Assembly: GCA_016647705.1 (NCBI GenBank)
Contig: CM028332.1
Span: forward strand, 29,641,300 to 29,705,299
DNA length: 64,000 nt
Direction of reading: 5' to 3'
Source of the DNA: Eucommia ulmoides
Lineage: Eukaryota; Streptophyta; Magnoliopsida; Garryales; Eucommiaceae
Below are positions 5,980-64,000 of this stretch, in pieces. The position numbers and the translations under genes were made by a program. The first letter of the stretch is position 1. Every line of letters begins with the position of its first letter. Under the pieces are notes generated by a model. It saw only the letters and a program-made list of their open reading frames with translations, was not told where the DNA came from and did no database searches.

Positions 5980-6210
5980 TTCGCCTAAGCGGTAGAATCT
6001 TTGCCTAGGCGAAGGTTAAGTCGGTTAGAAATCTGCCTAGGCGATGGTTTATTCGCCTAGGCGGAGGACTAACTTCTTAGTCTTCTTTTCACTCTGACTG
6101 ATTTCCGCCTAGGCGGTAGTTTCTTACCCTAGGCGGATTTCAGAACTGTAGTATTCCAACTTTTTGACAGAATTCCGCCTAGGCGGTGGTTTTCTTTGCC
6201 TAGGCGGATT
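5980..6210. repeat. Array of paired CGCCTAGGCG palindromes in LTR U3
   Basis: Eight near-palindromes built on CCGCCTAGGCGG have centres at 5986.5, 6006.5, 6038.5, 6058.5, 6110.5, 6130.5, 6180.5 and 6201.5. They form four pairs with internal spacing of 20, 20, 20 and 21 bp; pairs recur every 52-72 bp. The array lies just upstream of the LTR TATA box on the minus strand. Confidence 0.9.
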
Positions 6211-13198: not shown

Positions 13199-13208
13199 GT
13201 ATATATAG
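13199..13208 (-). promoter_or_regulatory. TATA box of C2 gene copy A
   Basis: On the minus strand the sequence reads CTATATATACCCC, 85-95 bp upstream of the ATG, which leaves room for a 50-60-nt leader rich in AC (CAATTAAAACACACACAAAC). It is preserved in copy B at 44964-44973. Confidence 0.75.
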
Positions 13209-13209
13209 T

Positions 13210-15001: not shown

Positions 15002-15006
15002 ATTCT

Positions 15007-16868
15007 TGATATGTGTGATATACCTACGTATTTTCAAATCGAATTAAGTTGGTTTTCGAGTGTTTAGATAGTATTTTATTATGTTTTAATTAGTTTTCAT
15101 ACTTTTTGTATAAATCAGGTGTGTAGAGCAAAAATATAGGAAACTGTATCGAAAACGATGAGATCGAACCGAAGGCGAGTCGAAGTTACGGTGGATAAAC
15201 AAGCAATGAGGCAAAAATATGAAGGAAACCCACCGCCTAGGCATCCAGACCTCCGCCTAGGCAGTGAAGATGCTAAGAATGAAAAAGGCTACTGACAGCC
15301 CACCGCCTAGGTAGGAAATTCCTCCGCCTAGGTGGAAACTCCAGTAGAAACCTTTCCAAGTCCACCGCCTACTTCTTCGCCTAGGCGGTCACCAAACCTA
15401 CAAAGCCAGTACAGGTGCTGCAACTTTATGGTTATTTTAGACTACGATGAAATCCTATTTTGGAAACACTCAAAACATGGAAGTTGTAGATCTTTTTCTT
15501 TGATTTCCATAGGTTTTTGAATTACCTCAATCGGAGTTCGGATGAAGAAGTTACAGTCAAAACAAAATTAAAAACCTGCAGTAACTTCGCCTAGGTGAAG
15601 TTTCCTTCGCCAAGGCGAAGTTCCGGCAGAAAGTTAACCGACCTAACTTCGCCTAGGCAAAAATCCGGCAACACAGTCTTGATGTTTATTAGATATTTTG
15701 AGATCTTTTGCCTATAAATACCCCTCTTCTCCCCCTTCTCTAGCTTCTATTGGGTTTTTGAGCACCTTAGGCTATATTTAAGCCTAGGTTTAGGAGTTTT
15801 AGAGGTGGAGCTCACATCCCGAAGTGGAGAAGACAGCGAATCGATCGTTGAGCGTTCTTAGCGATTTATCTTCGGACAAAGTTTAGTTCTTCGATTGTTT
15901 TTCCTTATTTCTTTATCTTAGGATCATGTGAGCATATTTAGCTCGATTTATATGTTTATGCGGCTATGGCCACGAGTTAGATATGGATTGTAGTAGGGAT
16001 TAACTATATATTTATAAATATGTTTGTTTGGATGATTTCGGTGTTGCGTTTATGTTTGTTCTTCGTAGTTTGATTGTGTTTATCATATTGTTTGTTTATT
16101 ATGCTTAGAATGGTAAATGGAGAATATGGGATTTTGACAAACCTCGAATTCGAATTAGGGTTAACAAACGCCACGATTCTATAACCCGGTCGGGGTTTGA
16201 ATCGTGGACAATCGATGACGTTGGGGCAAGACTCAAGCAACCTAGAGTTGTTAAGACATTGAGGGAGACTTCTTCGTTGACACAAAGTTGCGTTATATCC
16301 CTCATCTTACACTTGGAAGAGGTGACGAGGGAGTTTTAGAACAGAGATTGTCGATAGGGAAAATACAACGTCATGATCCAATAACCCGGGAGGGAGTTGG
16401 ATTGTGTACAATTAATGATGTTGGGCGAGACTCACGTGACCTAGGGTCGTTAAGATGTTGAGGGGGATTTCTTCGTTGACTCGAAGTCATGTATTCCCCC
16501 GTCTTACACTTGGGAGAGGTGGTGGTGGAGTTTACGTACCGAGATTGTCAAATAGGTCAAACATCGTAAACGTGAGTAAATCGAGATCGAACACGTATTT
16601 GTAAACACGTTAATCCCTAAGCAATTCTTGACCCTAAAACATATTAGCATATTAGTGTAGTTAATTTAGGTTATATTAGTATTAATTTAATTAATTAAAT
16701 ACATTGGTTTTCACCTAGATAAAGTTAGGTCACGACAAACGCGGTATTCGAAAGTAACGACACCAATTCTTGTGGATACGATAACCCGATCTTAACGATC
16801 ACACTATATTAAAACTTAGATCTCGTATAATTGCGAGTGTAAGTAGCGGCGTATTTTATGCACTACCA
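15007..16868 (+). mobile_element. Solo LTR (LARD/gypsy-like family) in copy A
   Basis: It starts TGATATGTGTGATATACC and ends GCACTACCA, with exact 5-bp target duplications ATTCT at 15002-15006 and 16869-16873. Copy B keeps the empty site (GATTTTAGATCTC near 46812). At 1862 bp it is the longest LTR of this family in the window. It contains palindrome arrays (15231-15390 and 15585-15660), a TATA box CCTATAAATACC at 15711-15722 and, near its end, ACTATATTAAAACTTAG as in the other members. No internal domain or second LTR is present. Confidence 0.94.
15231..15660. repeat. Paired CGCCTAGGCG palindromes in solo LTR U3
   Basis: Centres lie at 15238.5/15258.5 (20 bp), 15308.5/15329.5 (21 bp), 15370.5/15382.5 (12 bp, the exception) and 15592.5/15612.5 (20 bp), plus one single at 15654.5. 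Cores are CCGCCTAGGC or TTCGCCTAGG variants. The last ones lie 55-120 bp upstream of the TATA box at 15711. Confidence 0.88.
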
Positions 16869-16873
16869 ATTCT

Positions 16874-19074: not shown

Positions 19075-19244
19075 ATGTAAATTTGCAGTTTCGCGAATTT
19101 GAGGGTATACAGAGTTACTTATTCTATACTTTAGGAAACCTAAATATAAATTTTCCTTTATTCTTATCTGGACATTAAATCCCTATCGATTTTAACAAAA
19201 TTCACTCCTATCACCTTTTTTTATATTGTTGAAATCAATAAATT

Positions 19245-21671: not shown

Positions 21672-23379
21672 TATTGATCCTAAGATTTTGATGAACAATT
21701 AAATGTTGACATTTTTAGTGAAACTAATGGTATTTGTTTAAGTGTTTTAGGTTAAAGGGTTCCAGATAATATCATGAAGTAATTATGGACGATCAGAGAT
21801 GATAATATCAAGAAAAAATTGTGAAGGATGCAGAAACGACAGCATTTTGAAGAAGTTGAAAAGGATGCTAAATGAATACTAAAGAAACTGACAAAGATGA
21901 TGGATATTAAGAGACTGAGACTGAAGATTTTGAAGAATCTAGGAAAAAATAACTTAGGTTAATTTTTACTCTTAATGTATCCCGATTAGGATCACACATG
22001 ACACAAAAATGATTTTAATGATTATGTATGTTTTTAATAGGATCCTAATTAGTCAACATACTTGCTCCTATGTGATATTGAAGAAGAAATTAAAATTGAT
22101 TTAAGGAGTTATTTAAGTTAATCAAGAAAATAAATCGGTTAATGGGGCAAAAACGTCGAAGAGTTGAAATGCAATGAATTAAGAAAAATGTGTTCTAGCA
22201 AGATCGGTCGACCTGCATAAAAGCGTCGGTCAACCGATGAAAAGGTGATGGGAATAGTGTAGTCCTTGAATCATTAAGTCGACCTATGGTGTATGGTAGA
22301 TCGACCTAGGGCAGTCTCTAAATCTTTAGATTGACCTGTAGTGTATGGTAGGTCTACCTAGGGAAGTCTCTAAATTGTTAGGTTGACACACAGAAGTGAG
22401 AGGTCGACCTGTCAAACTCTCTGAGCGTAGGTCGACCTATGGGTGAAGAGTTTTTGGCTTGGACTACATCCTGAATCGGAAGGTCGACCTACGCCTTCTA
22501 GTAGGTCAACCTATGGTTCGGTTTTAGGATTTGTGGAATTTCAGGATTTATTCAAAAACCAGCCGTTAACTAGCCGTTATTTGTTTACTTGATTGAGAGA
22601 TCTTAGAGATATAGATATATTAACGATATAATACTCTTATTTGAATATCCCTATAGATATGGTACATGAAATTAAGGTATTTCTCAATTTAGTTCATATA
22701 ATTCTTTCTATCTTATCTAATTAAGATTGAGAAAATGTTTGAGGGACTAAATTAAATATTCTAACAGATATAATTAAGTCAATTATACCAGGATTGAGTC
22801 ATAATGATAAAAATGGTCTATTGGAGTAATTATTTGTCATGATATATGAGAACTAGCCGTTGGAGGGCTTATTTTAAATCCCTATAAATAGACTTGTGAA
22901 TTTCATATATTAAATGATCAATATCAAGAACAATTCAGTTCCTAAGTTTTTCTAAGAGTCATCAGTCTGATATTATCTTGAGAGATCAATTGTTGAGAAG
23001 TTTTTAAGTTAAAGAGCAATTTGAGTGAGCGTAACCGATCTAAGCTGTCTTGCGATACTACGTCCAATCTATTTAGGTTCCTACCCATTAAAATAATCTT
23101 GAGTTTAGTGGGTGTAAATCTCCATGGAGTTTGGGGGACTAGATTAGCCAAGAGTAGCTTAGTGAACCAGTATAAATTTATGTGTGCTGCAATATTTACA
23201 ATGTTTATATTTTGTTATTTGGGTGTGCACCTAGTTGATAACATATATTCCCTGCTATAAAGATAATAATTAATTTTTGGATAAAAGTAATTGTTTGATT
23301 TTGAAGTGTAATTTTTTTATAATTTTTTAATACTACCCAATTCACCCCCCCCCCACTTGGGTAGCTCACTGGGCCAACA
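21672..23379 (+). mobile_element. Copia 3' LTR (copy A), internally deleted
   Basis: It starts TATTGATCCTAAGATTTTG (expected TGTTGATCC, first G changed) directly after the polypurine tract and ends GCTCACTGGGCCAACA. It contains the GGTCGACC palindrome array (22204-22512) and a TATA box CCTATAAATAG at 22881-22891. Copy B follows it base for base to CAATCTATT (23073), then carries at least 780 bp not found in copy A. Copy A therefore lost an internal LTR piece. At 22200-22220 copy A preserves the uninterrupted target of LARD1. Confidence 0.87.
22204..22512. repeat. Paired GGTCGACC palindromes in copia LTR U3
   Basis: Near-palindromes of type AGGTCGACCT are centred at 22209.5/22231.5, 22280.5/22302.5, 22332.5/22354.5, 22384.5/22405.5 and 22485.5/22507.5, giving pairs 22, 22, 22, 21 and 22 bp apart, plus a single at 22433.5. 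The TATA box is about 375 bp downstream. Copy B has the same array (52193-52197 continued at 57750-58082). Confidence 0.9.
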
Positions 23380-44027: not shown

Positions 44028-44360
44028 TCTCTACTAGCCGGAGCTTCAGCAATGGATTCCTCACACATAGGAAAACAGAGTCCGTCGACGTTGTTCTTTG
44101 AGGTTGACAAAGCACAAATCATGGGAGGGCATTTCGGTAATCTCATCGCTAGTCGTGTTTGGAAAGGGAACTAATCAGGGCAAGAATTGTTGGCGATGGG
44201 AATAAACGGTGCAAGAAAAAGTCGGTAGGACTAAACGGTAAATAGTAACTTATTTTGGGAGTAAACGGTAATTTTTTTATTTTTTTAATTAAAATAAACA
44301 ATTTTCACGCAAATTACAAAAATTATTTGCAAATTTTCAAATCGATGAAAGTAAGTTTCG

Positions 44361-44879
44361 TCAGTGACCGACTCCCAACATAATTGCCACTGCATGCACT
44401 CCCACATGCAGCGCTACATGCGCCGCCGCTTTCCCGAGTTCTGCCAGAGAATTAGATTTTTTCTCAACCACAAAAGTTTCTCCCAAACTATACGAAAGAT
44501 CAAGTCTACCATAAGAATCCGATGAGTCAGATCTCTGGACAGTGAACCATAATCTGTCGCCCGGCTCGTGTAAGTCCAATAGCTTCTTGAGCGAGATATT
44601 CACCTCGCCGACGTACCGGTCACCCAGGGTCCGGTCGCAATACAGCTTGATGACGACTGTGCGGTCCTCCCGCCGGACCACATCCACGGGGATATGGTAC
44701 TTGGAGGTGCAGTTCCAGGCTGGGTTAGTTCCGCCGTTTGTGTCGATATGGGTACGCTGCTCTGTGCCAGAATCGCCGGAGATGGAGATTTTTGCGTAGA
44801 CTTTCATTTCGCCGAACTCTCGGACGTTCGGGAGGTCGGTGGCGGAAATGATTGTGACAGCAAAGTTCCGCCATTCCAT
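44361..44879 (-). CDS. C2-domain protein, SRC2-like (copy B)
   Basis: 172 residues, single exon, the duplicate of 12596-13114. Domain layout is the same: C2 at about 4-115, an aromatic-poor linker with LDLSYSLGETFVVEKK, and an Ala/His/Val-rich tail from about 147. Differences from copy A are Q21E, R64P, E65V, F101L and R115Q; start, stop and length are unchanged. Residues 64-65 lie between the GGTNPAWN loop and the next strand. The TATA box and leader are kept (44964-44973), so both copies could be expressed. The role is by family: membrane-associated phospholipid binding, often stress-linked. Which copy is ancestral cannot be told from these two sequences. Confidence 0.87.
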   Translation of the reverse strand: MEWRNFAVTIISATDLPNVREFGEMKVYAKISISGDSGTEQRTHIDTNGGTNPAWNCTSKYHIPVDVVRREDRTVVIKLYCDRTLGDRYVGEVNISLKKLLDLHEPGDRLWFTVQRSDSSDSYGRLDLSYSLGETFVVEKKSNSLAELGKAAAHVALHVGVHAVAIMLGVGH

Positions 44880-44963
44880 GGTGGGTTTGTGTGTGTTTTA
44901 ATTGGTCAAGTGGCCGAGAGAAGAACCAACCGAAAAGGCAAATAATTGGGTTAGAGGAGAGGG

Positions 44964-44973
44964 GTATATATAG
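44964..44973 (-). promoter_or_regulatory. TATA box of C2 gene copy B
   Basis: Minus-strand CTATATATACCCC at the same distance from the ATG as in copy A. The leader between them is nearly identical. Confidence 0.75.
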
Positions 44974-44974
44974 T

Positions 44975-46311
44975 GGAAACAATGTATTTATTAATAATTT
45001 TTTATTAATTTATTTATTTATTTTATTACAAATAGTTGAAGGGTATTTGAACATTACCTCTTCTACTAGAAAAACACACTAGATAACTATTAGATTACAA
45101 ATTTTGGTTTTAAAAATTATTATTTATATAAAACTAAAAGTTTTGAAGTTTCACTGAAATGTCAAATTTGCCCCCGATTTTACAATTGTTTGTCTATGTT
45201 TTTTTTTTTTTTTTTTAAATATTGTTCCAAATCGAGATAGACTTGTAATATCATTAAAAAATTAGACGGAAATTGCACTCCAAACCAATTTCTCGGAAGG
45301 TACTTAGGCTATTGTTCTTAATAATTTAGGAACAACAATACAATACTAGGAACAAAAGAATACAAAATTATATTTGGAGGACAAATATTTAATTTCAACA
45401 AAATTACAGGACCATTTGAATAAAAAATTATTTGGTATCAATTATTGACAAAGAAGTGTTGCGTCAATTCGATACCAATTCAATACTCAATAAATAATTA
45501 ACAATTCATAATTTAAAATATCAAGGTCAAGTAGTGTAAATTATCCAAAAATAATAATTTTTTTAATGCATGTTGGGTGAGAGACCTAGTAAGAACTAAT
45601 AAGATGGAAAACTACTTTAAAAGAATAAAAAATAATAACGTTGACCTTGTAATTTATTTTACTTTTATTTGGATCCCTACTTGCAATTTCCTTGTGCTGA
45701 TCTCTATGAGTTCCAAATAACAAATGGAAAAATTATATTTTATTTTACAAAAAATTATGGAAATAATTGGTGATTAGTCCCAAATAGTAGATGTGATCTG
45801 TTATTAGTATTATTTAGAATATAATTTTTAATTTAGTCGCTTGAATTGATTTTTATTTGTGTATTAGTCTCGCATGTTCTCATATATGTATAATATTAAT
45901 TACATGTACCTATATAATAATAGTTACAGGTTACAGAATAAAATGTAACATAATTACATGTAATTTGTTACATCTAAAAAAACATTACACACAAATTAGA
46001 TACATATAACTACAGGAGTGCAATGTGTGTATTGAGTCTTCCGTTTTTTTAATGCGTGAAACTAAAACACAAGTTGAACTTACGTATGGATTGTTTTAAA
46101 ATTAAGGGTAAAATAAGAGATTTGTCACAAAAACACCCAAAATTATATTTCTAAAAATATGGGGCGAGTGTTTTGTACAGCATGAGATTTATTAAAGGAT
46201 TTTTTATTATTTGGACTTTTTTTAACTTTCTTTCTCCTCACTAATTCTTTTTTCAAAAAAAATTATTTTTTAACCCTTTTGAAAAACATTCTTATAAAAA
46301 ATCCTTCTCAG

Positions 46312-46347
<36 letters not shown>

Positions 46348-48036
46348 ACAATTATACCCTTATATATATAACCCTAAATTTCTAAATATCAATAAGATTT
46401 GCACAGCAGCTGCCTCCCCCAACCATCTCTCTCTCTCTCTCTCTCTCTCTCCCCTCTCTCTCGCTAGTTGTAGCCCGAATATTCATGTTCAAGAAATTCA
46501 CTAGATCTAGATTTGTGTTCAAGAAATTCACCAGCGAAGACAATGGCCATCAACGTCTTCAATGACAATGGAAATGACAAGAAATTACGGCCACCTAATG
46601 AGTCCTCTCTCTCTCAAGAAATTCCAACCACCTAGCACGAAATTCCAAATCGATGGACGAGAAATTTCGGCCACCTGACAAGAAATTTTGACCGGAAACG
46701 ATTGCACTGGTCGACATCGGCCACCGTGCATTCAAATCTACTGCTGGGTTGTTTTGGATTGCGGTGAACGATTTGGCGGTGAATGTTCACAATAATCGAT
46801 CTTGCGGTAGTTGATTTTAGATCTCAGCCATGTTCATCGTATGTGAATATTCAGACCGTTGTGTCTCTGTTTTTTGTGAAAGTTCATGTTTGTTTTGTTT
46901 TCTGTGAATGTTTTGCAAATAGATTAGATATGTTTTGGTTTTTCTATTGTTTTGTTGATTGTTTATGTATTTTGTTTGAATGCTCATGTTGAGTTGTTCC
47001 TCATTCTCAGATTTGGTTTGAATGCTCTCATATCTGATTTCTGTCTCTATTTTTTAGATCTCGGTGAATGTTCCTGTGAAAAAAAAACCAGATCTGATGT
47101 TCATTTCTTAGTGTGTAGGTTGGTGGATGTTGATTTTGTGAATATTCATGTCAATTTTTGTTAGATATGTTTTGAATTTGCGATTTTTTGTGAATATTCT
47201 CATATTTTGATTTGTTGTTCAGACAGTGAATGTGTGTATTAGGAATGTTGGTTTGAATGTTCATATTGATTTGCTGTCGTTTCAGATCTTAATTTTCAAA
47301 AACATGAACATTCACAAATCTACAAAAAGATTTCCAAAAAAAATGAAATTAATATTATCGAAAAGAGGATTTTTTGTGGATTAATTTAACGTTTTTTTTT
47401 TAATTTCTATCAATCGTGAATCACGTGAGATGATTTTAGTGATTTGGTAGATTTTGAAAAAGTGAACACTCACATTTTTTAACAGAATGGCATAAATTAT
47501 AAATACAACACAAATAAGGTGTAATGACTAATGACTAAACTCTAAGAAGATTACGGGGACCAAAAACTTAATGTAGGCATTTGGAAGATCATTTTCTCAA
47601 TACACTCTTTTATAAGGACCAAATAATGAAATCCCCTTACTAAATTGCATATTTGATCTCTCAAATTTTACATTTGCTTCAATTCAGCAAAATTGAAAAC
47701 GTTGATAATGACTTATACGAAAAAAGGGATTATAGTACTCAGCATGCGGTCTTTGACTAAAAATATTTTCATCATTACATCACTCTACTAAACCTAAAAT
47801 ATTTTCCCCTAACAATGATTTAGATTTCTCTATCTCATTCTTCAAATAAAGTTGTTAGGAAAAAGTTAAAAAATGAAAAATAAAATAGGTTTTGTACAGA
47901 ATGAAATGACAAAAATATCTCAATAAGAAGCCAACATGCTGAGCACAATCTATTTTCCACAAAAAAAATTAAAAAAATCATTACCGTTATTTTTAATTTT
48001 GTGAGATTGAAAAACTGTGAAACTTAAAAGACTAAC
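44975..48036. other. Non-coding spacer of duplication copy B
   Basis: Matches copy A 13210-17956 without the solo LTR. It keeps about 70 bp near 45860-45935 that copy A lacks. Contents are an ACATGTA-rich repeat (45757-46030), poly-A (46311-46345), a (CT)n tract (46426-46451), AAGAAATTC words, then many GTGAATGTTCAT variants (46770-47330). The empty site of copy A's solo LTR is at about 46812. Confidence 0.65.
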
Positions 48037-49160
48037 GGTACGTTTGGTTGACAGAATGGGGGTGGAATGGAATCGCAATGCCACTTTCAATTCTGATTCC
48101 TTTATTTGGTTGTCTAATGGAATCAAAAATGTGATTCCAATGGACTGAAAATTGATGGAATTGAATACCATATTTCATAGGCCAAAATTGGATACCATAT
48201 TTCTTGGGCCAAAATTGAATTCCATAAATAGCGGTAGGGATTTTTTTAGGTTACACCTAAAATGCCTCATCTCATTTTGGTCTATAATTCTCAATTTGAC
48301 AATGACTTCGTTATTTTCAATAAATTGTTTTATCAATTTAGTTCTATATTAATTTGAATAAAAACCAAAAAAAAAATGTTATTCATTAAATGAAGGAAAT
48401 AATTTGTTTTTTCAAGTTTATATTTTATTTTTGTAAAAAAAAAAAAAAAAAAAATAGATTTTTTCTAATATTCAATTTTTGTTTTGGGAATAGAAATAGA
48501 TTTTTTTGTTCTCGATTTTTTTTTTCATTTGTTTTAGAATAGAAACATATTTGCTTGTTCACAAATTTATATTTCAAACAAAAATAAAAAATTGAAAGAA
48601 AAAAAAAAACAAAAGAAACAGTTCATCCTCCCGAAATAGAAGCATAAATTTGAGAACGAAAAATATCTTAGTATTGTTCCCGAAATAGAAACAAAAATAT
48701 AGAAATGAAAAATCTATTTGTTTTCCTGAATCAGAAAAAGAAATTTAAGGGAAAAAAAAACTATATAAGAAATGGAAGTAGAAATCTGAAAACAAAAAAA
48801 AAATGCTTCTATACCTAAAAAAAATAAAAAATTGAGAAAAAAATCTAATAATGTTCCCAAAAATGAAAACAGAACAAAACAATTTTAAATGTTGGTAGAT
48901 TTTGAATATTTTCTACATGAGATATTACTCATATTTTGTAGCCATTTTTTTGAATAAAATATTATTAGGTATATATTATGAATGAATTTGATCTTAAAAT
49001 TAATATGTACAAGAGTATTATTCCATTCTATTTCTTTAAGTATACAATAACAATCAAAAAATAGAATTCAATAATAACTTAATTGGTTTACATCCCTTCT
49101 CTTATTTCATTCCTTCTTCGATTCCATTCCAACCTATTTGCATTATATCCAATCAAATGA
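48037..49160. mobile_element. Non-autonomous inverted-repeat DNA element (copy B)
   Basis: Same element as 17957-19074: left GGTACGTTTGGTTGACAG and GGTGGAATGGAATC, right GATTCCATTCCAACC and CCAATCAAATGA. It duplicated along with the segment rather than inserting twice, since its flanks match in both copies. Confidence 0.6.
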
Positions 49161-49328
49161 GTTGTAAATTTGCAATTTGGCGAATTTGAGGGTATACATA
49201 GTTACTTATTCTATATTTGAGCAAACCTAAATATAAATTTTCCTTTATTCTACTCTGGATATTAAATCCCTATCAATTTTGACAAAATTCACTCCTATCA
49301 CCTTTTCTTATATTGTTGAAAACAATAA

Positions 49329-49730
49329 ATTTTAGGGATAATTGGTGATTAGTTCCAAACAGTGGGGTAATATATTATTAGTTATCTTTAAAAGATAAGT
49401 ATTGATTTAGTCCCTAAATTGGTTTTTGGTTCTGTATTAGTCCCCCATGTGCTCACACATTGCGTGTAGAAGGTAGAGAGAGCTTGGAGAGTAAAACCAT
49501 ATTATAGTGAATATTAGTTATATATAACTATAATTAATTACAAGTTAATAATTACAAATCACATGTAACTATAATACATATATCTGTGTAATATTAGTTA
49601 CATGTCCTTATGCAATGTTAGTGACACGTAATTAAATTACATATTACGATATATTACATTTACTTGTGTAATATTTGTTACATCTAACAAATATTTTACA
49701 CATAAGATAGATACATGTAACAGAGATAGT
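49329..49730. repeat. ACATGTA-rich interspersed repeat (copy B)
   Basis: Matches 19245-19635, from GGGATAATTGGTGATTAG to GATAGATACATGTAACA, again joined to copia gag. Confidence 0.6.
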
Positions 49731-50780
49731 ACAAACGCAGGAGCCGAAAGTGACCGCAATTGAGGAAGTTAAGGATCTTGCCAAATACGAAATCGATGAC
49801 CACGTCGGTAACCTGATGACACATGAAACAGCAATTCGAGGATATAAGGATGACGCCAGAAATAGCAAAAAGAAATCCTTGGCAGTAAAGGCTCATAAAA
49901 CTGAATAAGATTATGATAGTAATAATGAGAGTCTTGATAATGAGCAAGAAAAAGACGTGGCGCTTCTTACGAAGAATTTTAGAAGAATGACTCGATGTAC
50001 ATTCCGTGGGAAATAAAACTTGAACATAAACAATGTGGAACGCTACAACTGTCACAAGACTGGTCATTTTCAAACTGATCATCCGTGCTTGCCCTAATGG
50101 CTACTGGTAATGAGGTACCTAAAAGTTCAAGTTCTTGTCCTGTTGATTTTGATGATTTATTTGATGTATATGAAGAACTTACTCATGATTATAAAAACTA
50201 GTGTTCAAAACTTGATGCCCTTTAAAGTACAATGAATACATTAAACAAACAAGTGATGGATTATGAATCTAAAAATATTGAATTGAAATCCAAGGTATCG
50301 GATTTACATTCAATCGTTCTCAAATTTACCAGCGGTGAAAATAATCTGAAAATGCTTTTGGGAAGTTCACGGGGTATCTTTGATAAAGCCGGTATTGGAT
50401 TTCAAAAAAATCTTACCCAAAAACGTTTTTACAAATTCTTTTCTGAAACTAAAGATCTTGTTGGATGTTTTAAATGTAACATTGTGAGGCATACCATTCG
50501 TAAATGTTTTTCAACAATCTAATTGCAGACAAGTTTGCGTTCCCAAGGGAACTAAAATTGTCCCGACTAATAAGATCAGAACCACTTAGATTGGATACCA
50601 CCTAGGAACTCATTGAGTCGATTCTTGCAGGTTATCAAATAAACATCTATTTGGAAGGACAAATTGTTCCTATGAAATGGTTGTTCTCAACACGTGACAA
50701 AGAATAAAGTAAAATTTACGTCTTTAACACCTAAAAACGAAAGTCATGTGATTTCTGGAGACTATGTCCTAAGTAAGAAA
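49731..50780 (+). pseudogene. Ty1-copia gag and protease start, decayed (copy B)
   Basis: Counterpart of 19636-20850. It keeps KVTAIEEVKDLAKYEIDD near 49750, the first zinc knuckle CYNCHKTGHFQT at about 50040, and an open stretch at 50232-50522 with LNKQVMDYESKNIELKSKVSDL and the second knuckle CFKCNIVRHTIRKC, whose glycine is replaced by Arg. Compared with copy A it lacks the Lys/Glu-rich linker and part of the acidic linker after the first knuckle (a deletion at about 50080), and has fewer stops in the coiled-coil part. Polymerase domains are absent here as well, so the element was already gutted before the duplication. Confidence 0.86.
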
Positions 50781-51659
50781 TTAAGTTTAAATAAGTGGTA
50801 AGAATTTATATATATATATTGTCTTAGAATTATTGCTTGTTAATTAGAAAAACTTACATATTTATATGTGATATCTTTATACTATATAAGATCTACTAGA
50901 AGTTATATTTAAAAGATATGTGAAATATGTTATACTAATTCATGACTTGTTTACTATTAAGTTAAGTAAGTGTGTTAAAATGTATGATATCCTGACTTAT
51001 TTGAAGTATTGCAGCTACTTAAATGATAAATGTATTATATATTGCATTCATATGGTTTGAAAGCTAAGTATTGATTATAACCATGACAGTAGCATGTATT
51101 AGATTTATGATTGACGAATTCATAAATTATCATTGAGGAATGTTTTATGCTCTAGTGCGTTAAAGATTTTATTTTTCTCCTAAGAATCAATTATCTTGTT
51201 TACACTTATATAGTGGGAGATTGCATACTAAGAATGATATTTTTAGTGTGGATAGGCATATTGATATTTGCCTAGAGTAGTAGAGTTATTTGTGTTTCTC
51301 CTTTCCCATTTTTTGAGATGACAAGGGGAAGAATTTAGTGATGTTTTGTTGAATATTTATAAGAGGAAACCATGAGCTTTAATTGAGTTAGTTAATATTT
51401 AGGTTTTGTTTGCCTAAGTATTACATTGTTATAGGGGGAGAATAATGCAGATATGATCATGCTATGCTTTATTGAATATCTATGCTTGTTTTATTGATCA
51501 TATTTTGTGTTTTATTGAATATCTGATGATGTTATTGAATTATCTTCATGATTGTCTATAACAAGTTAAAGAACCCGTCCTCGGATTTAGGGAGAGCGTG
51601 GTTACATCTTATTTTGACGAAAACATCAAAGTTAATTTTCATCATAAAAAATGGGAGAT
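50781..51659 (+). other. Copia 3' internal remnant (copy B)
   Basis: Collinear with 20851-21671. A (TA)n tract at 50807-50819 replaces part of the copy A text. The polypurine tract is weakened to AAAAAATGGGAGA before the LTR start. Confidence 0.6.
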
Positions 51660-52197
51660 TATTGATCCTAAGATTTTGATGAACAATTAAATGTTGATAT
51701 TTTTTATGGAACTAACGTATTTATTAAGTGTTTCAGGTTAAAGAGTTCCAGATAATATCATGAACTAATTATGGACGATTAGAGACGATAATATCAAGAA
51801 AAAATTGTGAATGATGCAGAAACGACAACATTATGAAGAAGTTGAAAATGATGCTAAATAGATGCTAAAGAGACTGATAAAGATGATGGACATTAAGAGA
51901 CCGAGACTGAAAATTTTGAAGAATCTAGGGAAAAACAACTTAGGTTAATTTTTACTCTTAATTTATCTCGATTAGGATCACACACGACACAAAAATGATT
52001 TTAATGATTATGTGTCTTTTTAATATGATTCTAATTAGTTAACATACTGGCTCCGATATGATATTGAATAAGAGATTAAAATTTATTTAAGGAGTTATTT
52101 AAGTTAACCGATAAAAGAAATCAGTTAAAGGGGCAAAAACATCGGAGAGTTGAAATGAAATGAATTAAGAAAAATGTGTTCCAGTAGGATCGGTCGA
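51660..52197 (+). mobile_element. Copia LTR (copy B), left part up to LARD1
   Basis: It starts TATTGATCCTAAGATTTTG as in copy A. It is cut at 52197 by LARD1, exactly within the first palindrome of the array; GTCGA at 52193-52197 is one target duplication. It continues at 57750. Confidence 0.87.
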
Positions 52198-53632
52198 TGG
52201 TGGCGATGGATTTCACGCACGCCACATTTACCGCAAGTGTACGGGTCAAGTTTTAGTATAAATGGGGAGAGTAAGAATTATCGTGTCCACAGGGATTGGT
52301 TGAGATTATTATCGAGTACCGTGATTATCATAACCTAATTTTATCTAGGCGATAAAAATAGAATTTATAATTAATACTAATACTAAACTAAGTTAATTAA
52401 TATAATTAAACTAATTATACTAATACTAATATGAGATGTTTAGGGGAATAGATTGCCTAGGGATTAACTTCATTTACTTCTATGTGTTTGATCTCGTTTA
52501 ACTTACGTTAATGGTATTCGACCTCTTCGACAATCTCGGTACATAATCCCACTCACTACCTCTCCCGAGTGTAAAGTAAGTGAATACATGACTTCGTGTC
52601 AACGAACAAGTCCCCCTCAACGTTTTATCGACACTAGGTCACGTAAGTCTCGTCCCAACATCATTGATTGCACACTTTCTAACTCTCTCCCGGGTTATTA
52701 GATCATCGCATTCTATTTACTCTAGTCCGAATTCGGGGTTACCTCTCTCGAGTGTCAAATCCCGTATTCTGAATATATCTAAATAAGCATTAATAAACAT
52801 GACAACACAGAAAACACAATCAAATAACGAAGAACAACCATCAACAAAACACCGATATCAAAATAACCACATTTTCATAAATTATATTAATCCCTAGACA
52901 AAATCTATTTAGCTAATGGTCATAACCATATATACAATGATACACATGCTCAAACAATAAATAGAAATTAAGAAATAAAGAGAGAAACGAAGAGAACTAG
53001 CCGTTATCCGAAAATTTATCACTAAAACCATTTCGGGATCGCTTCTCCTTCTTTGCAATGTGTTCTTCTCCTTCGGAATTGATGAGCACTCCCCAAAACC
53101 TCTCTAATATGCCTCTAATATGGTAAGAGGTATAATTACCAAAAATAGAGAGGAGAGGAGAAGATATAGGGCACAAAATATCCTAAAATATCTAAATAAT
53201 ATCTAAATCCAGTGCAGAGTGACCGCCGCGGCGGTGGGCATGTCGACAATAGTGACCGTTGCGGCGGTGGCTTGCTCGCTGCGGAGGTGGAACAGTGGGA
53301 AGTGTCTCTGTATTTTGACCACCGCGACGGTAAGTTCACTATTGCGGTGATGGATTTGCAGAGACATAAGGCTTCTTTCTGTGTTATGACTGCCGCGGCG
53401 GTGGGCTGCAAATCCTGGAAATTGGCCCCTTTGCTCATTTCTCCATTGTTCTTCCATCGCTCTTGATCCGATTTGATCGTTTATGATCCGTTTTCATCCT
53501 GTTTTCACCCCACACATTTGATTTATAGAAATATAATAATATAAACGTATTAAAAATGTAATAAAACGTTATAAACATACTTGAAGACAAACAAGTTTAG
53601 TTTGGAAATAGATAGGTAATTTACACCTATCA
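52198..53632 (-). repeat. 3' LTR of LARD1
   Basis: 1435 bp, partner of 56323-57749. Palindrome centres are at 53228.5, 53261.5/53281.5, 53324.5/53344.5 and 53395.5; both pairs are spaced 20 bp. A segment resembling the end of other family LTRs (TTAAAACTTGACCCGTAC, minus strand) lies next to its outer end. Confidence 0.92.
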
Positions 53633-55580
53633 AATACCCCTAAACTTATAATTTTACTAGTCCTCAAGCAAAACACCCACACAATACGAGAAAATATAAC
53701 AACTAATTACGAAATTAAAAATGAAAAATGAAAAACACTAAAAACAATAATGTGCAAGTTTTGATTATCATCTAACGGCCAAACGATTTTTTTCTCATAG
53801 GCCCCCAATCCTATCAAGTTCCAGCATAAAACGCACCATGTGGTGTTTTAGAATTTCAACATTCGACAATAGTAACCGTCATTCTAGATCTTGTCAAAGT
53901 GTGTGTTTTAAAACTTAATTATATAACTATCCGTCGATCGAATTTGATTATCCACCAAATAAGCTCATTACTAAAATCAAAAAGATATATGGAATCCATA
54001 AGCCTGACCCAGTTCTATTCTCCAATACTGTAGGCTCGAAAATTCAAAAAGATCAATAGGGTTTGGTTTGGTTTTACAAAATGGCCAAGGGTATATTGGA
54101 AATGGAAAATAGGTTAATATTGTTAACTTGACAATACTCAAGGTACATGCTTGGCACTCTCACACTCAAAACCCCATAGATAAAGTTGAAACAACCCTGA
54201 ACAATCATTCAAGAACATCGTAGTCACTTGTCAAAACAAACGGAAATAAAAACAATATCTATATATACTTTTTTTTTTCAAACTGAACCACACCCCTAAA
54301 CTAATTCGATTATTACAAATTAAAGGGTGTGTGAAATATGAACGAAAAATGACAAGTGAGTTCTCGAATACCAAACCAATTAAAAGTTCACCCTAAACCC
54401 AACCGCTCACATTAAGTAGCGAAATGCTAACTTGATTTTACTCAAATTGTGACTTTGGTTCAGTGATATATGTTTGGAAAAAATTTAATCGATCAGGGTA
54501 TTGGTTAAGTGTTCAGAATTGAAACGGTTTTTAGGCTTCGACAGGGTAATGAGGGATCATGATATAACAAGGTTAGCTTCAAAGGCTCAAGCGATAAAAA
54601 CGAATACCTAAATCAAATCTTCTGAACTACCTCGCCTAGGATTTCACCTCGAATTTCTCCCAAATCAAGTTCTAGAATCCCTATTGTCATGAATTTGGGT
54701 GACATATAATCATTCTCAAATCAATGAGACAATTATACATTGAGTTTACATGCTCATGCATTTAGGATCTACAATGACTTATACTAAAATATAATGTCAA
54801 GCACACAGAACACACATGAATGAGCTTTACGCTCGACCTCAATAAACAATCAAGGGACAGACTCATCATCAAGAAATGGCTCAGATAAATTCAAACTCAG
54901 CACAGCAATAAAAACTACCCTAAACAAACATGCACACGATAAAACAAATAAACATAACTAACAATACTAACACATAATAAACATACTAACACATCACCAC
55001 CAACTTAACACGGGCAATGCCCAAAATGACCCATCAGTGATCCCAATGATAGCATATAGCATGATAATAAAGACAGGGGTTTAGAATACATACCTGGGAG
55101 GCAAGAGAATCTCGCCTCGAAATCAAATCGGTGGAGATGGATCTAACTTATTTTTGCCTTGGGTTCCCTCCCAAGGTCTTCAGCATGACACGCCGAAGTG
55201 CTAGTCAAAGAGTGACTTCCACCCGTAGTACGTGTTAAATAACACCAGGTATGGGTCTTGGTTTAGAACGCCCTCAAGACTGGCGAGATATGGCTTTATT
55301 CGGCTCGGGCTTTCAACTCAACTCAGTTCCGAATTTTGTGCTTGGAGAGCTTGAATGTACTGAGGTGGAAACGGGGTAGGATAGGTGAGCGACGTTGGAT
55401 CCTCATAGATGTGATCATATTGGCTCGGGGTGGCATCACCAATTGGAATTCAAACAGTAAAAACTCACAACGATTAATATGTGAATCTCTATCGCCAATC
55501 CACACTTGGTTTATAGCATCTTCATGATCGTTTTAGATCTCACCCAAGTACCTCATGCTTATCTCCCGTTGCTTCCAGTG
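53633..55580 (-). other. LARD1 internal non-coding region
   Basis: Between gag remnant and 3' LTR. The polypurine-like tract is at 53633-53647. The region aligns with 61950-63437 of LARD2 in reverse orientation, including TAGTCCTCAAGCAAAACAC, CACCATGTGGTGTTTTAGAATTTCAAC-type text and the hairpin at 55157-55176. No gene was recognised. Confidence 0.7.
55157..55176 (-). other. Conserved hairpin downstream of LARD gag (LARD1)
   Basis: CCTTGGGTTCCCTCCCAAGG: a 6-8-bp stem. The equivalent in LARD2 is CTTGGGAGGCACCCCAAG at 61940-61957, in the same place relative to gag. Similar TTGGGAGGCAACCCAA-like hairpins occur in plant gypsy elements; the function is not established. Confidence 0.6.
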
Positions 55581-56177
55581 GATTTCATAATCGGATTAGG
55601 CTTGTGAATCTCTCAGTGTCACCGCTTTTATCTCGGCCTCAACAAAGCAGATAAGGTGATCAATTTGCATCTAAAGAGATGTTACGGTCGCATCAATGTT
55701 GACGTAGACCATCTCGATATTGTCAAGATAGTCCTCGTGCTCGTTGAGCTGATCATACATTTCCCTCAATAATCTCTGAGTCTCCCCCGTAACGGTTACG
55801 AACATTTCTTCCAAGTCGGGAGAAAACTCCACATCTTGAATCGGAGTGTCAATCTATGGCACCGTGGTATTGGAACAATCCCCCAAGCTTTAGTGACTTG
55901 GTGAATAATTCCAACTTTGATGATCAAAGGCCGCCATTTCCTCCAATGACCAAATGGCTTCGTCCGCGGTTAGGTCATAGAAAGTGGTGCTACCATTTCC
56001 TTCTACCCACATTCTTGTTGCCACTTGTAACCCATCGAGGAAATTCAAGAGTTGACATTCCCTCAGGAAACCATGATTCAAAAATCGAAATAGCAGCTCA
56101 TTGTAACAATCCCAAGTACAATAAAATGGCTCGGAATCTTGTTGAAAGAATTGCATCAATACTTATTGATCTAACAT
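55580..56177 (-). pseudogene. LARD1 gag-like remnant
   Basis: Start at 56177 (MLDQ), stop four codons later, then an open stretch to 55890: QFFQQDSEPFYCTWDCYNEL, FLNHGFLRECQLLNFLDGL, TADEAIWSLEEMAAF. This pattern (FLDGL...TR...TADEA...LEEMA) corresponds to the Retrotrans_gag core of Athila-like elements. After another stop, the frame continues with LREMYDQLNEHEDYLDNIE, a predicted coiled coil, to about 55650. It aligns over its full length with 60922-61419 of LARD2. No protease or polymerase follows. Confidence 0.82.
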
Positions 56178-56300
56178 CTTCAAGTACCCTGCAAGAGAAA
56201 TAAAAACAAAACCACAAAATAAAAATTATACACAAAAGAAATGCCTAAATTAAAATCGGGTCATTTACTCACAATATCAACAATAATCTAAAACACAATC

Positions 56301-56316
56301 CCGGGTAACGGCGCCA
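56301..56316 (-). other. LARD1 primer binding site
   Basis: Minus-strand TGGCGCCGTTACCCGG, 6 nt inside the 5' LTR end. It is close to the tRNA-Asp-type site TGGCGCCGTTGCCGGGGA known from Athila-like elements. Confidence 0.85.
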
Positions 56317-56322
56317 AAAACT

Positions 56323-57749
56323 TGGTGGCGGTTGATTTCATACACGCCACTTTCACCGCAAGTGTACAGGTCAAGTTTTAGTATAGATAGAGAGAGTACG
56401 GATTATCGTGTCTATAGGGATTGGTTGATATTATTATCGAGTATCGTGATTATCATAACCTAATTTTATCTAGGCGATAAAAATGGAATTTATAATTAAA
56501 ACTAATACTAAACTAAGTTAATTAATATAATTAAACTAATTATACTAATACTAATATGAGATGTTTAGGGAAATGGATTGCCTAGGGATTAACTTCATTT
56601 ACTTCTATGTGTTTGATCTCGTTTGACTTATGTTAACGATATTCGACCTCTTCGACAATCTCGGTTCGTAATCTCACTCACTACCTCTCCCGAGTGTAAA
56701 GTGAGTGAATACGTGACTTTTCATCAACGAAGAAGTCTATCTCAACGTTTTAATGACACTAGGTCACGTGAGTCTCGTCCCAACGTCATTGATTGCATAC
56801 TTTCTAACTCTCTCTCAGGTTATTAGATCGTCTTGTTCTATTTACCCTAATCCGAATTCGGGGTTACCTTTCTCGAGTGTCAAATCTCGTATTCTCAATA
56901 TATCTAAATAAGCATGATAAACATAACAACATGGAAAACACAATCGAATAATGAAGAACAACCATCAACAAAACATCAATATCAAAATAACCACATTTTC
57001 ATAAATTTTATTGATCCCTAGACAAAATCCATTTAGCTAATGGCCATAACCATATATACAATGATACACAAGCTAAACATACTCAAACAATACCAAAATT
57101 AAGGAATGAAAAGAGAAACAAAGAGAACTAGCCGTTATCCAAAGATTTGTCACTAAAACCATTCCGGGATCGCTTCTCCTTCTTTGCATCGTGTTCTTCT
57201 CCTTTGGATTTGATGAGCACTCCCCAAAACCTCTCTAATATGCCTCTAATATGGTAGGAGGTGTAATTACCAAAAATGGAGAAGAGGGGAGAAAATATAG
57301 GGCACAAAGTATCCTAAAATATCTAAATCTGCTACAGAGTGACTGCCGCAGCAGTGGGCTTGTCGAGAATAGTGACCGCCGCGGTGGTGGCTTGGTCACC
57401 ACGGCGATAGAACAATGGGCAGTGTCTTTACATTTTGACCATCGCGATGGTGAGTTCATCACCACGGTGGTGGATTACAAGAGACATAAGGATTCTTTCT
57501 GTATTATGACCGCAATGACGATGGGCTACAGATCCTGGAATTTAGCCTCTTTGCTCATTTCTCTACCGTTCTTCCACTGCTCTTGATCCAATTTAATCGT
57601 TTATGATCTGTTTTCATCCTGTTTCACCCCCACACACTTGATTTATAGAGAAAAGAATATAAACATATTGAAACATTATAAAACATAATAAACATAGCCA
57701 AAAACTAATAAGTTCAGTTTAGAAATAGATAGGTAATTTGCACCTATCA
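56323..57749 (-). repeat. 5' LTR of LARD1
   Basis: 1427 bp. Palindrome centres are at 57348.5, 57381.5/57401.5, 57444.5/57464.5 and 57515.5; the pairs are spaced 20 bp. A weak TATA-like CCCTATATTTTC on the minus strand lies at about 57291-57302, downstream of the array. Confidence 0.92.
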
Positions 57750-59435
57750 GTCGACCTGCCTAAAAGTGTCGGTCAACTAACGAAAAGGCGATGGGAATAG
57801 TATAGTCACTGAATCGTTAGGTCTACCTATGGTGTATGGTAAGTCAACCTAGGGCAGTCTCTGAATCCTTAAGTCGACTTGTGGTATATGGTAGGACGTC
57901 CTAGGGAAGTCTCTGAATCATTAGGTTGGCAGACAGAAGTGAGAGATTGACCTGTCAATCTCTCTGAATCGTCAGGTCGATAGACAAAGAATCGTAGGTT
58001 GACCAATGGGCAAAGAGTTTTTGGCTTGGGTTTCATCCTGAATCGGGAGGTCGACCTACGCCTTCTGGTAGGTCAACCTATGGTTCGGTTTCAGGATTTT
58101 AGGAATTTTGGGATTTATTCAAAAACTCATTGTTAACTAGTCGTTATTTGTTTAATTGATTGAGAGATTTTAGGGATATGGATATATTAAATATATAATA
58201 CTCATATTTGAATATCCCTATAGATATGGTACATGAAATTAAGGTATTTCTCAATTTGGTTCATATAATTCTTTCTATTTTATCTAATTGAGATGGAAAA
58301 TATGTTTGAGGGACAAAATTGAATATTCTAAAAGATAAAATTAAGTGAATTATACCAAGATTGAGTCATAATTATATAAGGAGTCTATTGGAGTAATTAT
58401 TTGTAATGATATATGGGAATTAGCCGTTGGAGGGCTTGTTTTAAATCCCTATAAATAGACCTACGGATTTCACATATTAAATTATCAATATCAAGAACTA
58501 TTCAGTTCCTAAACTTTTCTAAGAGTCATCATTCAGATATTATCTTGAGATATCAATTCTAAGATCAATTGTTGAGAAGTTCTTGAGTTAAAGAGCTATT
58601 TGAGTTAGCATCACCGATCTAAGTTGTCTTACGATATTATGTGCAATCTATTCGGTATTTTTCTAGTGAGATCATTCCAAACTTATTCTTTAATTGAATA
58701 TTTTATTATCATTACTTTCTTGGTGAATCGATCGTTTTGACAAATCATTTTTTAACTTTAAAAGCATAAAAATCTTTTAAAACGATTTGTGTGTTAATCT
58801 AATTATGTCCTTAATTGTGCTGCCTGCATTATTTATTATAATCAGATTTTGCTTTTTCACTTTATTTCTATCACTAGTTTCGAGACATTAATTGAGTTCT
58901 AATTAATTTGAGGTGGTAGAAGTTCTGAGTGAGAAAAGCTTATCAATTTTGTAATTGGTGAGTTGTGTGTGGATTACATACTATTGGGAGTGTCTAATCA
59001 GGGGTAGCTAGTTTCAATCTCTTCCGGTAAAGAGATTGAGGTTTGATCTTTGCCTAAAGTACAAAAAGGTTAGGTTACTCTTTTCTCGTCAAAAGAGATA
59101 GGCGTAATTATTCCTAATTAGAATTAGTGTGAGTGAATTGTAAAGGTTCTATCCTTACCTAAAAAAATAACACTTGGAGTGATTGTGATGCTTGATTCTT
59201 AGCCTAAGGTATAAAAGAATTAGGTTTGATCCTTGGCCTGTGAAAGGATTAGGTTATCCTTGAGCCTAGTAAAAAGATAAGGTTATGCCTGTGCTTGGGA
59301 AAATGATTAGGTGGTGATGTCTCCTTAATAGAATTAAGTTAGTCTTTAGCCTGGTAAAAAGATAGGGTTCTTCCTTAGCCTATGAAAAGGATAATTGTAA
59401 AGGTTGATTCTGAACCTGGTAAAAGAATCAGTGTA
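57750..59435 (+). mobile_element. Copia LTR (copy B), right part between LARD1 and LARD2
   Basis: Resumes with the second GTCGA and the rest of the palindrome array (to 58082). TATA box CCCTATAAATAG is at 58447-58458. From 58653 it contains about 780 bp that copy A lacks, including 59010-59430, where GATTAGGTT, CCTTAGCCT and GG(T/A)AAAAGAAT-type words repeat every 25-45 bp. It is cut at 59435 by LARD2, with GTGTA as the presumed target flank. Confidence 0.82.
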
Positions 59436-60773
59436 TGATAAGTATAAATTACCTATCTATTTTTAAACCGAACTATGTTAGTTTTCGAGCGTTTTTATAT
59501 TATTTTATTATGTTTTAATTTGTTTATATTCTTTTTTGTCATAAAATAGTTATTTAGGGTGAAAAGGGACTAAAACAGCCCTTAAGCGATCAAATCGGAG
59601 CAGAGCGGTGGACAAACAGTGGGAAAAAACAAAGTTTCAAAATAGTAAACCCACCGCCGCGGTAGTGAAAGTATTGGGAGAAGCAGAAAGCCCACCACCA
59701 CGACGGTGAAAGTTCAGGAAGTTTGCTACTATTCTACAGTCGCGACGATCATTCCACCGCCACGGCGGTCACTCTGTGGATATTTTAGAATATTTTGTGA
59801 TATTTTTTAGCCTATATATATCCTCTCTTCTCCCCTATTTTACAGGTGAGACGTTTTGGGAACTCTTGAGAGCTCCGAGGCCATTCGACCAAGGGAAGAT
59901 CACGTTGCGAAAAAGGAGAAAGCGTTCTCGAAGCGATTTTAGCGTCGGATCTTCGGATGAATGACTAGTCTCCTCGTTTCTTTCTTTCTCTCTTAGTTTG
60001 GTTGAATGTTTTTATATGTTTAGCTTGTATTTTATTGTATATAGGGCTACAGCCATAAGTAGCTAAACATATATTCTCTAGGGCTTGATTGAATTCATGA
60101 AAACGTTGTTTATATAAATTTGATGTTTTGTTAGTGGTTGTTCATGTTTATCTAATTGTGTTTACCATGTTGTATTGGTTATTATGCTTGTTACGATATA
60201 CCGAGAATACGGAGTTTGACACTCGGGAGAGGTAACCCCAGATTCAGACTAGGGTAAACACAACGCGACGATCCAATAACCTGGGAAGAAATTGGAAAAT
60301 GTGCAATCAATGACGTTGGGGTGACACCCACGTGACCTAGTATCGTTAAGACAGTGAGGGGGACTTATTTGTTAACGCAAAGTCACGTATTCACTCACTT
60401 TACACTCAAGAGAGGTAGTGAATGAGATTACGAACCGACATTGTCAGATAGGATGAACAACATTAATGAAAATAAATTGAAACGAACACGTTTAAGTGAG
60501 CGATATTAATCCCTAGGCAATAATTCCCATAAACATCCTACCAATATATTAGTATAATTAGATAAAATAGTATTGTAGTATTAGTATTTATTAATTATAA
60601 ATTCCAGGTATATCGCCTAGATAAAATTAGGTTTTGATAATTACGATACTCGACAATATTCTCAATCAATCTCTGTGGAACGATATCTGACCGAAAGGTC
60701 CACTGTATTAAAACTTGACCGCATGCACTTGCGAGTCAAATCAACCGACGGGCGATCGAATTCGCCCCGGTCA
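59436..60773 (+). repeat. 5' LTR of LARD2
   Basis: 1338 bp. The palindromes are fewer and more degenerate than in its 3' partner (59653-59770, e.g. ACCGCCACGGCGGT at 59756). TATA box CCTATATATATCC is at 59811-59823. Confidence 0.87.
59811..59823 (+). promoter_or_regulatory. LARD2 5' LTR TATA box
   Basis: CCTATATATATCC, about 40 bp downstream of the last palindrome. It is identical in the 3' LTR at 63896-63908. Confidence 0.7.
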
Positions 60774-63437: not shown

Positions 63438-64000
63438 TGACAGGTATAAATTACCTATCTATTTCCAAACCAAACTAAGTTAATTTTCGAGTGTTTTTAT
63501 AGTATTTTATTATGTTTCAATTTGTTTATATTCTTTTTGAAATAAAACAGGTATTTGGGGTGAAATGGACTAAAACGGTCCTTAAGCAGTCAAATCAGAG
63601 CAGAACGGTGGACAAACGGTGGGAAAAACAAAGTTTCAAAATAGCAAACCCATCGTCGTAACGGTCAAGCCGCCGCCATGGCGGTAAAAGTATTGGGAGA
63701 AGTAAAAAGCCCACCACCGCAGCGGTCAGGCTACTGCAGTGGCGGTGAAAGTTCAGGGAACTATTCCATCACCGCAACAATTATTCCACCGCCGCGGCGG
63801 TAACCCTACCGACCTGCACACCGCTGCGGCGGTGATCCCACTACCGTGGCAGTCACTCTGTGGATATTTTAGAATATTTTGTGATATTTTTTAGCCTATA
63901 TATATCCTCCATTCTCCTCCATTTTACGGGTAAGACATTTTGGGTAATCTTGAGAGCTCCAAGGCCATTCGACTAACGGAAGATCACGTTGCGAAGAAGG
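63438..64000 (+). repeat. 3' LTR of LARD2 (partial)
   Basis: Starts TGACAGGTATAAATTACC. TATA box CCTATATATATCC is at 63896-63908. The window ends 563 bp into it. Confidence 0.88.
63652..63853. repeat. Best-preserved paired-palindrome array (ACCGCCGCGGCGGT)
   Basis: Eight 14-bp near-palindromes have centres at 63658.5/63678.5, 63719.5/63739.5, 63774.5/63794.5 and 63826.5/63846.5: four pairs, each exactly 20 bp centre to centre with a 6-bp gap. Successive pairs begin 61, 55 and 52 bp apart. The perfect form ACCGCCGCGGCGGT is at 63788-63801. The last palindrome ends 43 bp before the TATA box. Confidence 0.92.

Follow-up and report, generated by a model that had tools for sequence, protein, structure and literature searches.

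The stretch of the Eucommia ulmoides genome analysed here (64,000 nucleotides, hereafter the window) contains several long terminal repeats (LTRs) with arrays of short palindromes, or dyads, in the U3 region. The first-pass annotation had described these as 14-bp dyads in pairs with centres exactly 20 bp apart, both members facing the same side of the DNA as a platform for a dimeric protein. The locus raises the question of what rule the spacing of these dyads follows, and why a retrotransposon promoter should hold to such a rule.

Elements and arrays in the window

Two of the elements, LARD1 and LARD2, have paired LTRs. LARD1 is on the minus strand, with LTRs at 57749 to 56323 and 53632 to 52198 that are 86.6% alike. 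LARD2 is on the plus strand, with LTRs that start at 59436 and 63438 and are 74% alike where the window covers both (59436–59916 against 63438–64000). Judged by eye, the 5’ LTR of LARD2 has one 20-bp unit fewer than the 3’ LTR at each of two places, and two of the 3’ pairs are present in it as single dyads (lengths also by eye). Because its LTRs are so dissimilar and differ by single 20-bp units, LARD2 is probably either very old or recombinant. The LARDs have the core ACCGCCGCGGCGGT and two solo LTRs have TCCGCCTAGGCGGA; the half-sites are identical and the central dinucleotide differs.

At the place of the primer-binding site (PBS), LARD1 has TGGCGCCGTTACCCGGG and not the TATCAGAGC of Sireviruses, whose only occurrence in the window is at 30002. 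We take TGGCGCCGTTACCCGGG, which was seen in LARD1 only, to be of the tRNA-Asp / Athila-Tat type, and on this presumed PBS type the hosts of the CCGCC/GGCGG arrays are called Athila-like Ty3/gypsy LTRs.

The window also contains a duplicated block (12296–23073 and 44057–58652), with copies about 30 kb apart and LARD1 inserted in one of them. An ORF within this block (12596–13132, minus strand) is presumably C2-domain-like. A 167-bp repeat is found in about 10 tandem copies at 9802–11447.

Table 1. Palindrome arrays and associated features in the window
Feature	Position	Strand	Details
Solo LTR 1 array	5980..6208	-	TA-centred core CGCCTAGGCG
Solo LTR 2 array	15232..15661	+	TA-centred core
Second element array, 11 TAGGTCGACCTA-type dyads	22204..22513	+	gaps 22, 49, 22, 30, 22, 30, 21, 28, 52, 22
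LARD1 array, LTR 53632 to 52198	53222..53402	-	53228.5, 53261.5/53281.5, 53324.5/53344.5, 53395.5; partners 53281.5 and 53344.5 weak
LARD1 PBS-like sequence TGGCGCCGTTACCCGGG	56300..56316	-	immediately inside LTR
LARD1 array, LTR 57749 to 56323	57342..57522	-	57348.5, 57381.5/57401.5, 57444.5/57464.5, about 57515.5
Diverged copy of second array, 8 dyads	57747..58080	+	gaps 71, 22, 30, 22, 103, 52, 22
LARD2 5’ LTR array	59653..59769	+	two single dyads (about 59659.5 and 59700.5), one pair (59742.5/59762.5)
LARD2 3’ LTR	63438..64000	+	start of LTR; continues past window end
LARD2 3’ LTR U3 array	63652..63853	+	four pairs of 14-bp dyads
LARD2 3’ U3 dyad centres	63658.5/63678.5, 63719.5/63739.5, 63774.5/63794.5, 63826.5/63846.5	+	three of eight are weak palindromes
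18-nt insert AACCCTACCGACCTGCAC in 32-bp gap of LARD2 3’ array	63802..63819	+	contains CCGAC box recurring in such gaps
TATA-like box	63897..63905	+	downstream of LARD2 3’ array

Dyads were accepted if 2 or fewer of their 7 base pairs were mismatched. In the LARD2 3’ LTR, the coordinates and pairing given earlier for eight dyads were correct, but only five of them (63678.5, 63719.5, 63794.5, 63826.5 and 63846.5) pass this threshold, while those at 63658.5, 63739.5 and 63774.5 fail. The same arrangement had been reported for the other LTRs, and there too it is partly made up of weak sites – two of four named dyads pass in one LARD1 LTR and three of four in the other, and three of six and three of four pass in the two solo LTRs.

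The six U3 regions in the window contain 35 GC-rich dyads with at most 2 mismatched pairs, compared to 9.8 ± 2.9 in 500 dinucleotide shuffles. The comparison with shuffled LTRs, which the first-pass annotation had recommended, also bears out the pairing: the six U3s hold 4 pairs at 20 bp, compared to 0.04 in the shuffles. When each U3 was matched to itself, a shift of 20 bp was among the top three in all six and the best in three.

Spacing of the cores genome-wide

Motifs and related loci were searched for in the whole genome (947 Mb, 391 contigs). The core CGCCTAGGCG is found twice with 0–30 bp between the copies at 4814 places, and a control read backwards at none. At 3811 of these places exactly 10 bp lie between (20 bp centre to centre), giving the 20-bp peak for which a genome-wide plot had been proposed as a check. 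With any centre allowed, there are 4498 core pairs with 10 bp between, of which the 3811 are TA-TA.

Pairs of the GC-centred core CGCCGCGGCG are far fewer: among 50 of 52 matches listed, 34 are 20 bp apart, with three at 19 bp, five at 21, four at 32, two at 33, one each at 37 and 40, and none at 10–18 or 22–31 bp. The scarcity of GC-GC pairs is possibly due to decay of GC cores by deamination; a change of centre from GC to TA eliminates both central CpGs of the core.

Longer spacings, with 31–60 bp between CGCCTAGGCG cores, are found at 5869 places. Among the first 50 matches listed, all on one contig (C1) and several from one array, the distances were 42–43 bp (9), 50–53 bp (23), 62–65 bp (11) and 68–70 bp (7), with none at 44–49, 54–61 or 66–67 bp. 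Longer centre distances peak near 32, 42, 51–52, 62 and 70–72 bp.

Twenty base pairs is the commonest small step, but it is a special case of a grid of ca. 10.3 bp. As a general rule exact 20 bp was rejected, because LTRs selected by their flanks prefer 21 bp – 35 of 126 neighbour gaps in 35 such pieces were 19–21 bp, 9 of them at 20 and 20 at 21 – and because a second family, described below, uses 22 bp.

Helical phase of the arrays

Four sets of arrays were gathered: one selected by similarity, one fetched by TA-core pairs, one fetched by GC-core pairs, and one selected by flank only. Entries L011, L012, L014, L018 and L019, which are the same arrays as L010, L013 and L017, were removed before counting, as were clusters with fewer than three sites (in the phase, clustering, TATA and second-family counts).

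The spectrum of distances peaked at 10.2–10.4 bp in all four sets, with a mean cosine of 0.548–0.676 by set. When 90 distinct layouts were pooled (934 distances), the period was 10.3 bp and the mean cosine 0.574, compared to a maximum of 0.091 in 300 trials of random placement. The period was the same at site thresholds of 7.5–9.5 for arrays with two or more sites. Two of the sets were gathered with pair patterns, which builds in part of their short steps; when only gaps above 25 bp were used, the mean cosine was 0.636 (n=252).

The main statistical caveat is that the layouts of CCGCC/GGCGG LTRs are not independent: the LTRs are related, which leaves few independent choices of gap, and the basic gap classes are few (20, 32, 40–43 and 51 bp). 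Single-linkage clustering by spacers chained 97 of 98 arrays into one group, and average linkage at four cut-offs was used instead. With one array per cluster (37, 20, 12 and 8 clusters from the 98 arrays), the mean cosine was 0.58–0.63, and the random maxima were 0.15–0.31. Gaps off the grid, of 36, 45, 48 and 68 bp, also occur.

The dyads are thus real, far above chance and found genome-wide, and their sites follow a helical grid of ca. 10.3 bp. Placement on one face of the helix, which had been proposed for the 20-bp pairs, holds for 20-bp gaps, for gaps above 25 bp and for an unrelated LTR family.

A second, unrelated LTR family

This other family is represented in the window by the array of TAGGTCGACCTA-type dyads and its diverged copy (Table 1). 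Some genome matches of the second element are 5.6–7.5 kb apart, as expected of LTR pairs. Near the 3’ end of its LTR it has a polyC-rich signal of the kind known from Sireviruses, CACCCCCCCCCCACTTGGGTAGC...CAACA (in the 22.9–23.7-kb stretch). The Sirevirus PBS TATCAGAGC after CA/ATTGG is absent from it, the sequence reading CA/GTATTGGATCTTATT, and because of this difference in the PBS the element is called only Sirevirus-like.

In 22 arrays (2 from the window and 20 fetched), the commonest gaps were 22, 52, 40, 30, 51, 70 and 82 bp, and seven gaps were of 12 bp. The spectrum, computed from distances of 14 bp or more and so without the seven 12-bp gaps, again peaked at 10.3 bp, with a mean cosine of 0.640 (at most 0.177 with random placement), rising to 0.712 at a stricter site threshold. 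Off-grid gaps include 48, 49, 64 and 73 bp. A search for exact pairs of AGGTCGACCT found just 9 places at mixed distances; the tolerant scan of the 22 arrays was clearly phased.

Position of the arrays in the promoter

The arrays sit in U3, upstream of a TATA-like box where the loose pattern used for this box was matched. All 28 flank-selected arrays (the three-site minimum drops 7 of the 35 pieces) had a match to this loose pattern after the last dyad, 20 of them at 31 bp. In the similarity-selected set 27 of 39 arrays had a match, and 12 had none despite the looseness of the pattern. In the flank-selected set the dyads are in phase with TATA (R 0.77, null maximum 0.31), but the phase is weak in the similarity-selected set (R 0.35, null maximum 0.31), so that same-face placement with respect to TATA is well supported for the first set and weakly for the second.

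A CCGAC box is found in 23 of 42 gaps of 31–34 bp (the one at 63802–63819 and 41 from fetched loci), compared to 5 of 100 gaps of 36–60 bp, and the inserts in the 31–34-bp gaps resemble GACCCTACCGACATGCCC. The box resembles the DRE/CRT core. It may be a further lead to the bound factor, beside the GCC-box-type binder suggested by the first-pass annotation, which is a candidate and likewise a lead only.

Constraint on half-sites, centres and spacers

Across 43 aligned U3s, not counting the reference row, transversion diversity was 0.047 in half-sites, 0.119 in the centre, 0.125–0.155 in spacers and 0.125–0.228 in flanks. In the 35 flank-selected U3s it was about 0.078 in half-sites, 0.235 in the centre and 0.13 in spacers, the half-sites being just slightly below the outer flanks (about 0.097); half-sites had fewer transversions than spacers with p 0.006–0.04 over six reference rows. 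Misaligned dyads could be a cause of the lower count in half-sites.

Plain identity was not raised in half-sites (0.679, compared to 0.626–0.681 in spacers, with 0.681 between pairs, and 0.718 in 5’ flanks and 0.595 in the others). The reason is the high frequency of transitions in half-sites, which fits the decay of CpG/CHG sites.

Compensatory evolution of the two half-sites, as in a folded strand, was considered and rejected: symmetric covariation was absent at the five inner position pairs, in a test limited by the choice of sites scoring at least 8 of 11, and was present at the outer positions 1/14 (0.800, compared to 0.698) and at the centre. The absence at inner positions is what would be expected of protein contacts rather than of a folded strand. 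A freely variable centre was also dropped in favour of one with mainly two states, GC at 236 of 534 sites and TA at 136; other types, e.g. AC, GT and AT, are as expected of decay from GC.

A proposed model of operators on one helical face

The proposal of a dimeric binder fits both the fewer transversions in half-sites, a deficit that the centre does not share, and the independent decay of the inner positions. We infer from these features, with the phase, that the arrays are probably co-operative operators for an activator, a dimeric and most likely host-encoded factor. Each dyad, ACCGCC-NN-GGCGGT, would be an operator in which a homodimeric DNA-binding protein contacts both half-sites. Upstream of TATA in the U3 of the Athila-like LTRs there would usually be three to nine or so that can be recognised, and up to 17 in one array (L021). 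With centres on a grid of ca. 10.3 bp (20, 32, 41, 51, 62 and 71 bp), bound dimers would share one side of the DNA and could make contact with one another and with the basal machinery, making the whole a co-operative activator array. Operators on one helical face explain jointly the symmetry, the half-site constraint, the freedom of the centre, the drift of the spacers and the phase. LBD and ERF are candidate families for the host factor, as leads only; among the matches listed for LBD factors in open-licence literature, no usable palindromic consensus was found.

The spacing might instead be inherited rather than selected, as a by-product of tandem repeats in which slippage or template switching during reverse transcription amplified a unit of ca. 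20 bp, later of ca. 52 or ca. 70 bp. Such a process has left traces. The LARD2 LTRs differ by single 20-bp units, and two subfamilies (L017 and L021) hold recent, near-identical repeats of ca. 70 bp containing a pair with the spacer GGAAAC. Spacers are also slightly more similar to the neighbouring upstream flank than to swapped partners (0.349, compared to 0.291), which indicates that some 20-bp duplication took part. The pairs in general are not recent copies with identical spacers, however, a possibility raised earlier as counting against the platform: 44 distinct spacers were found among 105 twenty-bp pairs, and half-sites have been retained while spacers diverged in transversions. Gaps of 32, 42, 51 and 62 bp are whole helical turns and not multiples of 20, and the second family, whose palindrome is a different one and whose step is 22 bp, has an identical period of 10.3 bp. 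Pure tandem duplication accounts for copy number and for some subfamilies, but not for the 32-, 42- and 51-bp classes or the second family, and as the whole explanation we regard it as unlikely.

Folding of U3 RNA into hairpins that feed silencing, as proposed for the palindromes of maize Sireviruses, appears improbable as the reason for the arrays. Compared with shuffled sequence, two arrays do fold better (z −3.06 and −2.81) and one adjacent U3 stretch does not (z 0.15), and in maize the palindrome regions of LTRs of Sireviruses are small-RNA hotspots (PMC5311732, PMC10760457). For folding, however, the distance to TATA need not be fixed and no B-DNA phase of 10.3 bp is required. The inner half-site positions also lack symmetric covariation, within the limit set by score-chosen sites. 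It better explains why the host would target an array than why the element would retain one; RNA folding may turn the arrays into silencing targets.

A transposon-derived factor that removes silencing, coded by the element or co-opted and recruited by the array in the manner of VANC, is more doubtful still. VANC proteins bind dense arrays of motifs in the same orientation that co-evolve with them (PMC5735166). Changes of core from a GC to a TA centre would then track changes in the recruited protein, and the centre does switch between the two, often matched within a pair (39 TA-TA and 26 GC-GC among the 105). An element-coded binder was looked for in the LARD interiors by ORF, Pfam and protein searches without result – three ORF pieces, fragments only, had no Pfam family above the cut-off, and one of them searched against proteins had no match at E 0.001.

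Rotational positioning of nucleosomes over U3 by GC-rich blocks every ca. 10.3 bp is very improbable: the sites are GC blocks within AT-rich DNA and their period approximates the nucleosomal one, but each block is longer than one turn and would give little rotational bias, positioning requires no dyad symmetry and no defined half-site, and the second-family core TAGGTCGACCTA, only half G+C, is equally phased.

Implications for LTR promoters

The operator model suggests that same-facing sites let a paired protein switch the element on. A broader reading, which we offer tentatively, is that a rotational grammar is general in plant LTR promoters. Athila-like gypsy and Sirevirus-like copia elements would each have built their own palindrome arrays, accepting indels and duplications mainly in whole turns. 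The operators, sometimes together with TATA, would share a face of the DNA, from which an extended assembly of proteins could grow along that side, and switches of core from GC to TA might alter recognition or methylation and leave the grid intact.

A sharp rule of helical phase, shared by two families that are unrelated, makes a direct promoter prediction out of palindromes whose role was unclear – insertions of half a turn should break promoter function, and insertions of whole turns should not. The dyad is also a concrete probe in a search for the factor. If the sites are operators, the thousands of pairs in the genome would offer one host factor a large sink, or a large source, of regulatory sites.

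Comparison with known systems

Among the matches listed from one open-licence library, none reported helical phasing, and none described such arrays for gypsy LTRs. One of three exact core strings occurs in 75 papers, and the 15 of these that were listed are unrelated by title. The heat elements of ONSEN and the 13-bp repeat of Tto1 are host-factor sites that drive transcription from plant LTR U3s. So are the BII boxes of Tnt1 (PMC3316501). ONSEN is also named in PMC12786077. Tnt1, ONSEN and Tto1 have fewer sites than the arrays described here. We know of no helically phased palindrome grid in any of the three.

VANDALs are DNA transposons and not LTR elements. Their VANC motif arrays resemble the present ones as a dense, short motif in the non-coding DNA of a transposon, tandem-expanded and bound by a sequence-specific protein (PMC5735166). 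The motif, YAGTATTAY, is non-palindromic and the binder is element-coded; a search of the main text for words beginning with ‘palindrom’ or with ‘cooperativ’ found none (PMC5735166). Palindromes as insertion targets (PMC6911290) are a separate matter. The palindrome clusters of the maize Sirevirus LTR cis-region, which attract small RNAs, differ in superfamily and motif, and phasing is unmentioned in the available text (PMC5311732, PMC10760457).

The closest known system is the repeated motif (RM) of Sireviruses (Bousios et al. 2010, PMC2829016), a palindrome of 10–20 bp with mostly GC-rich cores, whose many copies cluster upstream of TATA in the LTR’s upper half. Its function was left open in 2010, other Ty1/copia elements (the ‘classic’ ones) were reported to lack it, and no analysis of the distances between motifs was found in the available text, where ‘helical’ and ‘spacing’ occurred in the reference list only (PMC2829016). 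Its hosts are Ty1/copia (PMC2829016), whereas those here are Athila-like Ty3/gypsy, and its core is CGG-CCG, whereas the order here is the reverse, CCGCC...GGCGG. The RM is defined by at least 8 copies clustered in U3; the LARD2 3’ U3 has 8 dyads counting weak ones and 6 by a scored scan, and many arrays hold fewer than 8. A TATA box after the cluster, another part of the definition, is found here with the loose pattern. Palindromes in multi-copy clusters upstream of TATA are thus common to both systems, and the second element shares the core GGTCGACC with the Vitis Sirevirus motif CGGTCGACCG (PMC2829016).
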